Source of the DNA: Melioribacteraceae bacterium | GTDB lineage: Bacteria; Bacteroidota; Ignavibacteria; Ignavibacteriales; Melioribacteraceae | DNA length: 64,000 nucleotides | Reading direction: 5' to 3' | Assembly (NCBI GenBank): GCA_015493615.1 | Contig: WGCV01000048.1 | Coordinates: 1-64,000 of the forward strand | Shown here: piece after piece, positions 6,710 through 10,490 of the stretch | How the letters are laid out: every line of letters begins with the position of its first letter | Position numbering within the stretch: position 1 is the stretch's first letter | Translations under genes and position numbers: made by a program | The notes under the pieces: generated by a model | Told to the model about the DNA's origin: nothing | Databases searched by the model: none | Seen by the model: the letters and a program-made list of their open reading frames with translations, nothing else

Positions 6710-6721
6710 AAAATCCCTCAA

Positions 6722-7086
6722 AATTTGTTAAACAAAAATACAAGAAATGGTTAACTTTTAGTAAAATTTCAGAAAAGTTTTTTACTGATTCCCAAATGGA
6801 TGAATTTTACTTCGCAGATTATTATGGAAAGTGAGGTAGTTAACAGTGACTTGTAAATAGCGAATAGTTAAAGAGATAAAATGAAAAATTTTAGACCGCA
6901 TAAGAAATTGGATTTATTGCACGAAAGAAACGGTTTAGAGGTTTAGTAGTTTAGGAAGAGAGAGACGCTGGGACTAAGAGACTGGGAGACTAAGAGATTA
7001 AGTGATGAGGAGCTGGTGTAAAAGTGAAGAAAAAATTGGACTGAATAAATTGGAAATTTATTTATCAAAAATATTGATGGCCAAAA
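6722..7086. other. Intergenic region with purine-rich repeat array
   Basis: No gene is seen here. Bases 6930-7010 form a degenerate array of ggtttagaggtttag followed by gactaagagactgggagac type words. It is the left partner of an inverted array found after the next gene (7460-7520). The first part of the gap carries the upstream region of the divergent HTH gene. Confidence 0.55.
6930..7010. repeat. Left degenerate array flanking four-helix-bundle gene 1
   Basis: The array is purine-rich and made of words such as gactaagagactgggagac and taagagattaag. The reverse complement of bases 7460-7520 reads as closely similar words (gagacttagcgacttagag), so the gene at 7087 sits between imperfect inverted arrays. 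Confidence 0.6.
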
Positions 7087-7458
7087 ATGAAACTTAGGTC
7101 GCATAGAGATCTTGATACTTACAAAATGGCATTTGAAGCCTCAATGCAGATTTTTAATCTGACAAAATCATTCCCAAAGGAGGAAAAATATTCACTTACG
7201 GATCAAATAAGAAGATCTTCAAGATCAGTTTGCGCTAATTTGGCAGAAGCGTTTAGAAAACGAAAATATCCCAAGGCTTTTGTTTCAAAATTATCTGATT
7301 CGGAAGCGGAGGCTGCTGAAACGCAAGTATGGTTACAATTTTCATTGAAATGTAATTATATTCAGAATGATATTTATGAAGAATTGTATAAGAAGTATGA
7401 ACAAATTTTGGGCAAATTAGTAAATATGTCAAGAAGCCCAGATAAATGGAAATATTAA
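7087..7458 (+). CDS. Four-helix-bundle protein (S23/IVP family), copy 1
   Basis: The 123-residue protein opens with the family pattern (RDLDTYKMAFEASMQIFNLT, SFPKEEKYSLTDQIRRSSRS, VCANLAEAFRKRKYPKAF) and has a clear four-helix layout. Members are found encoded in intervening sequences of 23S rRNA genes and, as the relative Avd, in diversity-generating retroelements; their molecular role is poorly known and may involve nucleic-acid binding through the basic face. Here the gene is intergenic, with no rRNA and no reverse transcriptase in the window. It is bracketed by inverted degenerate repeat arrays (6930-7010 and 7460-7520), an arrangement that recalls rRNA intervening sequences. A second family member lies at 9505. 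Confidence 0.85.
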   Translation: MKLRSHRDLDTYKMAFEASMQIFNLTKSFPKEEKYSLTDQIRRSSRSVCANLAEAFRKRKYPKAFVSKLSDSEAEAAETQVWLQFSLKCNYIQNDIYEELYKKYEQILGKLVNMSRSPDKWKY

Positions 7459-7459
7459 G

Positions 7460-7520
7460 TCAAATCTCTAAGTCGCTAAGTCTCTCGTTCTCTGAGTCTC
7501 AAAATCTCATCCTCTCCTTC
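7460..7520. repeat. Right degenerate array flanking four-helix-bundle gene 1
   Basis: The array is pyrimidine-rich (aatctctaagtcgctaagtc and following words) and begins immediately after the stop codon of the four-helix-bundle gene. It is an imperfect inverted copy of the array at 6930-7010. Confidence 0.6.
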
Positions 7521-7557: not shown

Positions 7558-9447
7558 ATGAAAACTTCATTCTCGACATTCATATTCATCCTAATCCTAT
7601 CATTCAGCACAAATGCTCAATCCACCCCCGAGCCGCTTTACCATGATGTTTATCCTTTTCTTGAGCGAATGGCGCAGAAGGGTGTAATTCAGTTTAATGA
7701 TGAGATCAGACCTTTGCCCAGGAAATATATTTTTGAGAAGCTTATTGAAGTAGAAGAAAAAGTGCGAGAGTTTAGGAGTTTAGGGTTTAGGAAGTTTAGG
7801 ATTACTGAAATGGAGATTGAGGAATTGGAGTTTTTCTTGAGGGATTATAATCTTGAAATTAATTTGGTAAACAGTGAACAGTCCGCCTCAGGCGGAACAG
7901 TAAACAGTGACCAGCTGTCAGTGAACAGTAAACAGCAAGCAGCCTCCGACAATCAGCAATCTGTTCAAACTATCTACTCAATCACCCAATCACCCAATCA
8001 CACATCCGCCTCCGGCGGAATCCATCCGCGTCAGGCGGAATCCGATCCAAGACAGTATAATCAAACTGATTATTCCATTATTCCAATTTCCCATGATTCC
8101 TCCGGTTCCCTTTTCTGGTTAAAAGATGTTCTGGGGCGTTATCGGTTTTTTAGTTATTCCAGCGATTTGTTCAAGGTGAATGTTGATCCGATTTTCGGTT
8201 ATGATGTTGGAAAACAGAATGGGGAAAGTTATTCTCATTTCTGGAATGGCGCGCGGATGTACGGGTATATTTCCAATTGGCTCGGTTTCAGTTTTGACTT
8301 TAGGGATAATTCCGTTGATAGTAAAAACGGCGATATAAACCTCAACTTTACTCCCGAAACGGGATATGTGATTTCGAGAAGAAAACCGAATCATTTTGAA
8401 TATGAGAGGACCAATACTGAGATTTCCGCATCGTGGAGCTGGGGAAGGGTAGCGATTGGGAAAACGCCGATAGTTTGGGGTTACGGCGAAAGCGGGAATT
8501 TAGTTCATTCCACAAAAGCGCCTTCTTATCCGTTAGTGAGGTTGGATTTAACATTGGCTCCATGGCTGCGGTTTAATTATTTTCACGGCTGGCTTTCAAG
8601 CGATGTTATGGACTCGGCAGCGTCATATCCGACATATAGAGAAGGGCAAAACAGAATTGTACTCCGAAATAAATACATTGCTTCGCATTCGATAATTTTA
8701 AATCCGGTTACCGGCGTTTCGGTTTCACTTGGCGAATCGGTAATTTATTCGGATAAATTAGAGCCGTTATTTTTATTTCCGTTAATGTTTTTCAGAGCCG
8801 CTGATCATTATTTGAGTAATGGTTTGGGCGGTAATAACTCGGGGGCAAACTCACAATTCTTCCTCGGTTTAAGCTCGCGCAATAATATTCCGAACACTCA
8901 TCTTTACGGAACATTTTTTATAGATGAAGTTACAATCGGGGATATATTTAATCCCAAAAAGCAGAGAACTCAATACGCTTTTCAACTTGGAGCTTCTGTT
9001 ACGGATTTACCGATTGATAATTTAACTTTTACAACCGAGTTTACTAAGATTTATCCATTTGTTTACAGACATTACATCCCGACTCAGACATACGAAAACC
9101 ACGGGTTTTTGCTGGGCGACTGGATGGGGCATAACTCCGACAGAATTTACGGCGCTTTAAATTACAGATTTATTCGAGGACTTCAAGCAACCATCTGGGG
9201 AGAATATATCAGAAAAGGGGGCGATGGTGTGGTGGATGATCAATACATTGTCCCGCAGCCGCCGTTTCTATTCGGCTTAAGAAAATACTACACACGGTGG
9301 GGAGTTACTGCAAAATATGAAATCATTCACGATTTGTTTGTTCGCTTAAGATACAATAATTTTCTCACGTCAGAAGAACAGACAGACGGAAGTTTTACCG
9401 ACTCCAAAGTAGATGAATTTTACTTTGCGGTTTATTATGGAATGTAG
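7558..9447 (+). CDS. Wzi-like capsule assembly / outer-membrane beta-barrel protein with internal repeat insertion
   Basis: The 629-residue protein has a signal peptide (about residues 1-20, ending TNAQ), a short periplasmic helical region (YHDVYPFLERMAQKGVIQF, residues 27-45), and a long C-terminal region of alternating strands ending in YFAVYYGM, which fits an outer-membrane barrel of the capsule assembly Wzi family. Wzi proteins bind and organise capsular polysaccharide at the cell surface, consistent with the glycan operon upstream. Two stretches look foreign: residues about 70-82 are encoded by gtttaggagtttagggtttagg words, and residues about 104-175 (Gln/Ser/Asn-rich) by cagtgaacagt words and three TCCGCC-n-GGCGGA palindromes, all found elsewhere only in intergenic repeats. 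The frame stays open through both. The Wzi assignment is by layout and moderate resemblance. Confidence 0.72.
   Translation: MKTSFSTFIFILILSFSTNAQSTPEPLYHDVYPFLERMAQKGVIQFNDEIRPLPRKYIFEKLIEVEEKVREFRSLGFRKFRITEMEIEELEFFLRDYNLEINLVNSEQSASGGTVNSDQLSVNSKQQAASDNQQSVQTIYSITQSPNHTSASGGIHPRQAESDPRQYNQTDYSIIPISHDSSGSLFWLKDVLGRYRFFSYSSDLFKVNVDPIFGYDVGKQNGESYSHFWNGARMYGYISNWLGFSFDFRDNSVDSKNGDINLNFTPETGYVISRRKPNHFEYERTNTEISASWSWGRVAIGKTPIVWGYGESGNLVHSTKAPSYPLVRLDLTLAPWLRFNYFHGWLSSDVMDSAASYPTYREGQNRIVLRNKYIASHSIILNPVTGVSVSLGESVIYSDKLEPLFLFPLMFFRAADHYLSNGLGGNNSGANSQFFLGLSSRNNIPNTHLYGTFFIDEVTIGDIFNPKKQRTQYAFQLGASVTDLPIDNLTFTTEFTKIYPFVYRHYIPTQTYENHGFLLGDWMGHNSDRIYGALNYRFIRGLQATIWGEYIRKGGDGVVDDQYIVPQPPFLFGLRKYYTRWGVTAKYEIIHDLFVRLRYNNFLTSEEQTDGSFTDSKVDEFYFAVYYGM
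7863..8045. repeat. Intergenic-type repeat material inside the Wzi-like reading frame
   Basis: This stretch contains repeated gtaaacagtgaacagt words like those at 13764-13810 and three mini-palindromes (7882-7896, 8005-8019, 8025-8039) of the form TCCGCC-n-GGCGGA like those at 5882-5895 and 11179-11192. The encoded residues are low-complexity Gln/Ser/Asn and fall between the periplasmic segment and the barrel. Confidence 0.65.
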
Positions 9448-9450
9448 TTG

Positions 9451-9491
9451 AAAAGGTACAAAGGTACAGAGGTTCAGAGGCGCAAAGGTAA
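9451..9491. repeat. Left inverted array flanking four-helix-bundle gene 2
   Basis: Bases 9455-9476 are an exact 22-base inverted copy of bases 9861-9882, on the other side of the gene at 9505. The array is built of aaaggtac and agaggttc type words. Confidence 0.8.
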
Positions 9492-9504
9492 AAAAGAAAA
9501 TTAA

Positions 9505-9852
9505 ATGAATTTTGATGATTTAATAGTTTGGAACAGAAGTAAAGAACTTGCGATAAATATTATTAAAAGTTTGGAAAAATCAAAGAGATTTGGAATTGTT
9601 GATCAGATTTCGAGAGCCGCGATTTCTATTCCCTCAAACATTGCAGAAGGATATGAAAGGGAAAGCAATAAAGAATTAATCCGTTTTTTATATATTGCCA
9701 AAGGTTCATGCGGAGAATTGCGTACGCAATTAATAATTGCAAGTGAAATTGGAATAATCGATAAGAAAACCTCCGAAAATTTTATTAAAGAATCTTCGGA
9801 AATTTCTTATATGCTCAATTCATTAATAAGGAAACGAAAAACATTTAAATAG
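9505..9852 (+). CDS. Four-helix-bundle protein (S23/IVP family), copy 2
   Basis: The 115-residue protein shows the typical family beginning (FDDLIVWNRSKELAINII) and core (DQISRAAISIPSNIAEGYER, GSCGELRTQL). It belongs to the same broad family as the gene at 7087 but to the more common IAEGYER subgroup, so the two are distant paralogs and not a recent duplication. It lies between arrays that include an exact 22-base inverted repeat (9455-9476 against 9861-9882). The start is the ATG at 9505, in a purine-rich stretch (aaaaaagaaaattaa) without a clear Shine-Dalgarno sequence. The molecular role is unknown; no rRNA or reverse transcriptase is near. Confidence 0.9.
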   Translation: MNFDDLIVWNRSKELAINIIKSLEKSKRFGIVDQISRAAISIPSNIAEGYERESNKELIRFLYIAKGSCGELRTQLIIASEIGIIDKKTSENFIKESSEISYMLNSLIRKRKTFK

Positions 9853-9854
9853 AG

Positions 9855-9926
9855 CCTCCATGAACCTCTGTACCTTTGTACCTCTGAACCTTTCCGCCTT
9901 TGCACCTTCTCACCTCTGAACCTCCC
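9855..9926. repeat. Right inverted array flanking four-helix-bundle gene 2
   Basis: The array is pyrimidine-rich (tgaacctctgtacctttgta and further cctctgaacctttc words), starting right after the stop codon. It contains the exact inverted partner (9861-9882) of the left array and continues with several degenerate units. Confidence 0.8.
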
Positions 9927-10490
9927 GAATAATTATTGAGAAAATTTCCAAGAAATTAACAAATCTGAGAAAATTCCAACTATACCCCGAAACAATTTAA
10001 TTCACAATTCACAGATACCTCTTTACCTATTAGCCTTTGCACCTCTGAACCTTTGCACCTTTTCAATAGAACACGGATAAGATAGGACGCTGATTTGTCA
10101 TGATTGATTATGATTTTTGTTGATTTCAAATAAAAATTCGGGATCCCGAACATTTTACGTTTCAGAATTATTACAAAAAGCGTATTTTTCATAAAAGAGT
10201 TCAAGAGGCAAATCACTCCAACCGTTTTTTACAATGTTGTCAACTTAAGAGTTTTTTATCATTAACCCATTGCTTCAGCAATGGGGTTAGAATGTAAATG
10301 AAATGAATTCCAACCGGTTTACCGGTTTTATTAACTCTATGGCGCATAAACCGGTGAACCGGTTACATGAATTATGGTCTTCCACTGACCCAATGATGAA
10401 TCAGTGGGTTAGTGAAAATAATTATTTTCTTAAGTTGACTGTATTGCAGCTATTGCGACGGGGCGATGCTTTATTAAAATATAAATATTT
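9927..10490. other. Intergenic region with orphan array and REP-like hairpins
   Basis: No gene is supported. A pyrimidine-rich array without a gene (10016-10062; tagcctttgcacctctgaac words) is followed by a 14-base perfect palindrome TTCGGGATCCCGAA (10137-10150) and a cluster of four REP-like hairpins at 10262-10410. Short open frames here have no codon structure or homology that I can recognise. Confidence 0.5.
10262..10410. repeat. REP-like palindrome cluster
   Basis: Four short hairpins follow each other: ACCCATTGC/GCAATGGGGT (10265-10287), AACCGGT-TT-ACCGGTT near 10313-10328, AACCGGT-GA-ACCGGTT near 10349-10363, and CCACTGA/TCAGTGG (10382-10407). All share a TAACC...GGTTA style frame. 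Related hairpins lie at 11157-11240 on the other side of the rubrerythrin gene. Confidence 0.6.

Follow-up and report, generated by a model that had tools for sequence, protein, structure and literature searches.

What is a gene of the S23/IVP family, the family carried by the intervening sequences (IVS) of ribosomal RNA (rRNA), doing between inverted repeats in an intergenic region that holds no rRNA? The question is raised by a 64,000-nucleotide stretch of a Melioribacteraceae bacterium (contig WGCV01000048.1 of assembly GCA_015493615.1, positions 1 to 64,000 of the forward strand, hereafter the window), in which such a gene lies at 9505..9852. An earlier note, made from the letters alone, had likened the layout to that of an rRNA IVS and proposed a mobile or hairpin-forming element. 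We consider, with a probability of roughly 70%, that this locus holds a copy of a small mobile element which is of the rRNA-IVS type but resides among protein genes.

The anatomy is plain: one IVP/S23 gene nearly fills the element, and the ends are inverted tandem arrays of 7-8-nt units. All parts lie on the plus strand. The left (5') arm (9448..9492), a tandem array of the 8-nt unit AGGTACAR (AGGTACAA/AGGTACAG/AGGTTCAG/AGGCGCAA), begins at the first base behind the TAG stop codon (9445-9447) of the preceding gene, which is Wzi-like (7558-9447; PF14052 in a Pfam scan). Behind the IVP gene come an inner right arm (9857..9926), where the 8-nt array is inverted (CCTCTGTA CCTTTGTA CCTCTGAA CCTTTCCG ...), and an outer right arm (10022..10066) with the same inverted unit. 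The exact inverted repeat had been given as 22 bases and is one base longer, its 23-nt halves being 9454..9476 in the left arm and 9861-9883 in the inner right arm. The longest inverted pair joins 9448-9492 with 10022-10066 (45 nt, 84%, with the ends TTGAAAAGG/CCTTTTCAA); the latter is probably the outer end of the element, whose size is ~480 bp if measured to the inner right arm and ~620 bp to the outer one. For the transcript, a folding energy of -126 kcal/mol is predicted, while shuffled sequences give -93 +/- 5.8 (z -5.7); the arms form the basal stem of the predicted structure, in line with the suggested hairpin.

The product (115 aa, net charge +5) matches PF05635 (23S_rRNA_IVP) with 123 bits (E 6.5e-36, cut-off 33.8), and its AF2 model is a four-helix bundle with a pLDDT of 96. 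The best fold matches are 2gsc (XCC0516, Z 19.3), 2rld (Z 17.8) and the Avd protein of a diversity-generating retroelement (DGR) complex (Z 14-15); generic helical bundles at Z ~8-12 were also numerous and are left uninterpreted. By profile and by fold the protein is thus a member of the IVP/S23 family, as had been supposed. No transposase domain (DDE or Y1/HUH) turned up, the Pfam scan giving only PF05635 and, in a second IVP gene of the window, a weak bAvd match.

Of the features by which an IVS is recognised, the window element has one, an IVP open reading frame (ORF) within stem-capable inverted arms, and lacks another, a location in a helix of 23S or 16S rRNA; to a third, excision from the transcript by RNase III, it contributes the predicted stem. 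A tRNA is the sole match in an Rfam scan of the window, which gave no rRNA. This genome carries its 23S rRNA on a different contig, C22, on which a profile search found no IVP match. Nor did any rRNA or other Rfam RNA lie close to 19 IVP loci poor in arms, and the phage records searched gave no match.

Is the inverted repeat a property of this family or an accident of this locus? We scored arms as the best local alignment between the 200-250 nt upstream of a gene and the reverse complement of an equal length downstream, and called them strong when the score reached 30. In the window and forty stretches from the order, none longer than 20 kb, this level was attained by 54% of 56 IVP genes and by 1.5% of 608 other ORFs; at 76 GTDB loci from many phyla the figures were 43% of IVP genes and 1.8% of 166 controls. 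When, in the same stretches, the comparison was made with 167 controls flanked on either side by non-coding DNA and not adjoining an IVP gene, strong arms were found at 60 of 120 IVP genes and at 2 of the controls (Fisher test, p = 2e-25). Overall, 83 of 163 non-redundant IVP genes (51%) have strong arms, against 1.2-1.8% of controls. The layout is thus recurrent and specific to IVP genes, and the doubt voiced in the earlier note, that flanking arrays might prove rare at IVP genes or equally dense around any gene, is not borne out.

Arrays as such are common (0.24 per kb overall, with periods mainly of 7, or 14, and 8), and 121 of 202 lie away from IVP genes. One might therefore suppose that short arrays gather by slippage in any intergenic DNA, and that an inverted pair around a gene is accidental. 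Within 836 kb, among pairs of arrays of the same unit no more than 800 bp apart, 26 of the 32 inverted pairs enclose an IVP gene, against 3 of the 37 direct ones; it is thus the inverted geometry, and not array density alone, that is tied to IVP. Together with the matched controls, this contrast refutes chance or slippage as the cause of the inverted arms, and we give that explanation next to no weight. On both sides of cyanobacterial IVP genes we found the units GGGGAGT, TTGGTAA and CAGTTAT, which we take to be STRR-like. In one relative, many heptamer arrays (AACTTAA/GAACCTA) are clustered in a single orientation in a region without an IVP gene (L072:12534-15400).

Each element has its own unit. 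The cosine of 4-mer content is 0.75 between the arms of one element and 0.11 between elements of one genome, a contrast somewhat inflated by the arms having been picked by matching; that protein similarity tracks the unit words may reflect descent. A unit-order test (29% of 34 elements at p<=0.05) is biased by the choice of arms and was not used. The arms are also polar. Of the upstream arms, 68 have more AG than CT, 7 have less and 8 are tied (p = 1e-13), and the trinucleotide counts are AAG 156 against CTT 8 and GGG 69 against CCC 0; given the inverted orientation of the arms, each end thus has its AG-rich strand directed inward. Between co-directional genes, 91 elements are in sense and 11 in antisense orientation, and the median distance between the upstream stop codon and the outer edge of the first arm is 4 nt (no more than 10 nt for 36 of 70). 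The sequences of relatives thus point to a usual insertion place immediately past the end of the preceding gene, next to its stop codon, and in sense to the operon. In Flavobacterium sp. LC2016-23, the left arm of the groES-IVP element has expanded to about six copies of a ~81-bp minisatellite (L127:1532-2039).

Sense orientation in operons, NAG-like polar arrays adjoining the start codon and a strong predicted RNA stem are also what one would expect of a domesticated regulator at the RNA level, whose arms would form a stem of 5' and 3' untranslated regions bound by the IVP ring, as TRAP is on NAG repeats, to control IVP or its operon, with mobility being incidental. The strong purifying selection on IVP fits as well: five Flavobacterium orthologs at the gmk-nadD site have dN/dS values of 0.03-0.14, which implies that this protein is produced and is of importance for element or host.

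Here the comparison of occupied and empty sites is informative. In Flavobacterium, the element between groES and groEL is present in three species and absent in three others, and that between gmk and nadD is found in five of six, the sixth having instead a gene-less inverted array hairpin with a different unit; one of the orthologs at gmk-nadD departs from the others, in both arms, in the variable portion of its unit. The Nostocales plasmids, where the element is ~420 bp long, provide a closer view. At site 2a, between two adjoining plasmid genes, three plasmids are occupied and five others have a 3-bp gap. The element differs there at 4 of 420 positions and the flanks at 183 of 2271 (p = 9e-10), with mismatches starting at the element edge; at site 1 the differences are 3 of 489 and 350 of 2604 (p = 9e-24). 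Elements are thus ~99% identical within flanks that are 83-94% identical, a pattern consistent with movement from plasmid to plasmid.

The junctions tell how insertion would have occurred. The empty site 3 reads AAAAAGTAATTAACAAAT (L273); when occupied (L268), it reads AAAAAGTAAT before the element, which itself runs AAATCAGAATTC...TTCTTCTTT, and GTAATTAACAAAT after it. The flanks of these two plasmids are identical at 209 of 210 and 293 of 300 positions, and the 5-bp target GTAAT is duplicated, with 423 bp between both copies. Site 2a reads AGATTCTAGATTATG when empty (L261); when occupied (L264), GATTCT is followed by an element running AAATCAGG...CTTCTGA and then by ATTCTAATTATG, so that ATTCT is duplicated. 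The left terminus AAATCAG is common to both sites, and a gene-less copy (L257 compared with L258) gave GTCA. Gene-less hairpins are found also at site 1 (L254), at site 3, where one plasmid has a short one (L275) in the place of the IVP element of L268, and within an IVP gene of L264, which is split by a 182-bp hairpin with matching arm words. In this lineage, occupied and empty sites with a target duplication, the mark of a mobile element, thus occur together. Such a life style, with insertion, a 5-bp target duplication where measured, movement between plasmids and gene-less copies, is therefore shown in relatives of the window element by comparison of sequences.

Presence and absence between close relatives and plasmids, target duplication, the recurrence of one set of arms at several sites, copies without the gene and an IVP gene that has itself received an element are all traits of mobile elements, and they make the regulatory explanation unlikely in spite of the points in its favour. 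Could IVP genes instead insert into arrays that the host already had? Solo arrays would offer ample targets, since most arrays lie away from IVP genes. An array split by insertion would, however, be left in direct and not inverted halves. Moreover, the empty sites have no array, and the arm words TCAGAATTCAGAAGTCAGGAGTCAG accompany related elements at positions that have nothing in common in Aulosira, Trichormus/Scytonema, Nostoc C052 and TCL26-01 (the copies of the last two being remnants). As arm words are constant at unrelated sites, the arms move together with the gene and do not arise from the target sequence. For the Nostocales lineage, a preference for pre-existing arrays is thus refuted, and elsewhere we hold it to be very improbable. 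The same constancy rules out a derivation of the repeat unit from the target sequence, which site 2a had suggested.

The mobility put forward in the earlier note therefore holds for related loci, by occupied and empty sites, target duplication, a lineage present at several sites and elements that have diverged less than their flanks, and did not find the same support at the window copy. Several observations weigh against our interpretation. No empty ortholog of the window copy was found, its neighbours being too little conserved in the genus; mobility is thus seen in relatives of the family and layout, and not in this copy. Just outside the edges 9448 and 10066, the only repeat is the 3-base TAG. 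The seven IVPs of this genome differ much in sequence, so that recent transposition is not seen in it. The 5-bp duplication is based on two sites in one lineage, and the 100 bp of flank closest to the element of site 1 are well conserved too, so that exchange by recombination or gene conversion is possible there. About half of the IVP genes have no strong arms by our score. Finally, we know of neither a catalytic motif nor a strand-transfer activity in the IVP fold. It is probable that the IVP copies of this genome are old residents.

How might a mobile element of this kind move? Probably an IVP ring, of the kind formed by XCC0516, a homopentamer (PMC4990558), and sharing the Avd fold, would bind the arm repeats either as a paired stem or as a single strand, and join both ends of the element for insertion; strand transfer would be performed by the protein itself or by a host enzyme. 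For the binding of the stem by the protein, put forward in the earlier note, the Avd fold and the element-specific arms are indirect hints. The gene would be expressed by read-through transcription of the operon, and its transcript, folded by the arms into a stem, could be a substrate for excision by RNase III, by analogy with rRNA IVS. A dependence on reverse transcriptase (RT) may also be considered, in which IVP would act like the Avd of DGRs and an RT encoded elsewhere would copy the excised stem-loop RNA. The Avd fold, the stated homology of PF05635 and Avd (PMC10053308) and the sense insertion agree with this. RT in trans is nevertheless quite improbable, because neither this genome nor 21 out of 30 relatives, among them genomes that have as many as 16 IVP genes, gave an RVT_1 match.

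A second element lies upstream in the window, also on the plus strand. Its left arm, of unit AGAGACTN, is best seen at 6977..6999 (the array covers ~6957-7005), its gene at 7087..7458 encodes 123 aa matching PF05635 and, weakly, bAvd, and its right arm (AAGTCTCT) is at 7463..7485, the array running on to ~7513. A profile search of the contigs gave seven PF05635 matches in the genome, and on reading the flanks we saw mirror arrays at at least five of them, the unit being different each time (ATGAGTA, AGGTACAR, AGAGGTA, AGAGACTN, AAGTAAA and a weaker AAATTAT); at the seventh, a partial match (L007), no array stands out in the flanks.

Other features of the region deserve mention. Just upstream of the second element, 6721-6828 is the remnant of another Wzi-like gene, of which only the C-terminal end is left, and an IVP gene follows the end of a Wzi-like gene in two relatives too (G002 and G004). 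The Wzi-like gene at 7558-9447 has at 7868-8115 some 80 residues more than the orthologs of relatives, encoded by in-frame heptamer-like arrays (CAGTGAA..., CAATCAC...) with TCCGCC..GGCGGA palindromes. Such palindromes within heptamer arrays were seen in the window at 7880-8080, in L001 and in L198, where they occupy both arms of one element. At L198:341-715 (G004:C557), a GIY-YIG ORF (89 aa, PF01541) bounded by the exact inverted repeat CCCTGTGTAATA/TATTACACAGGG interrupts the IVP gene, and is possibly another single-gene inverted-repeat element. Several IVP genes are clustered within a few kb in G004:C15, G026:C46 and G026:C163, and several IVP copies of relatives have internal stops.

To our knowledge, IVS have been known for more than three decades, and no account of their origin, of the function of S23 or of how they move has become accepted. 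Their placement in a large intergenic family, whose ends can be measured and which has target duplications and occupied and empty sites, makes IVS mobility directly testable, and gives a biological context to many genes that carry no other annotation than "four helix bundle protein". Movement of an element that has no recognised transposase would be new as a mechanism. The family is also a candidate source for the heptamer arrays described in several phyla, and would link a poorly understood selfish element with unexplained short repeats of bacterial genomes. More tentatively, and at somewhat less than even odds, these may be single-gene transposable elements spread across phyla, whose ~120-aa four-helix ring recognises and helps to move element-specific heptamer ends; rRNA IVS would be their rRNA-resident members, and the heptamer arrays and inverted pairs of cyanobacteria, Bacteroidota and Xanthomonas largely their footprints or gene-less passengers. 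Among open-access papers, we found none that links non-rRNA IVP genes to inverted arrays or shows their insertion.

The element can be set beside several known systems. Like the REPIN/RAYT and MITE-IS families, as these are generally defined, it has inverted short repeats, a single-gene partner and gene-less copies; unlike them, it has no Y1/HUH or DDE transposase, its ends are tandem heptamer arrays and its protein is unrelated. With DGRs it shares the Avd fold, but identity to DGR Avd is 12-14%, and the RT by which a DGR is recognised is missing from the genome. Heptamer arrays of like style lie between genes in cyanobacteria (STRR/LTRR), in Beggiatoaceae, cyanobacteria and Bacteroidota, including the TAACTGA arrays (PMC4679880), and in Xanthomonas, where GGGAATC arrays form 70-75 convergent inverted pairs (PMC4692102); both papers describe them without the terms S23 or four helix.

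The closest likeness is with the rRNA IVS of Leptospira and Coxiella burnetii, in which a PF05635 gene nearly fills a loop closed by inverted arms, over ~420-430 nt, in sense to the host transcript and with sporadic presence. The Coxiella IVS (428 nt, with a 28-bp bounding stem) even has the heptamer GACAGAT three times in tandem immediately ahead of its S23 gene, and has been described as selfish; an origin by transposition or from a mobile element has been proposed for IVS and not shown, save for a horizontal transfer inferred in Leptospira (PMC4990558, which cites Ralph and McClelland 1994 for it). The Coxiella S23 gene is decaying and apparently untranslated, whereas the Flavobacterium IVP orthologs are under strong purifying selection. 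The window element differs from rRNA IVS in lying between protein genes, far from rRNA, and in having a unit specific to each element, and its relatives differ in showing target duplication and multiple sites.
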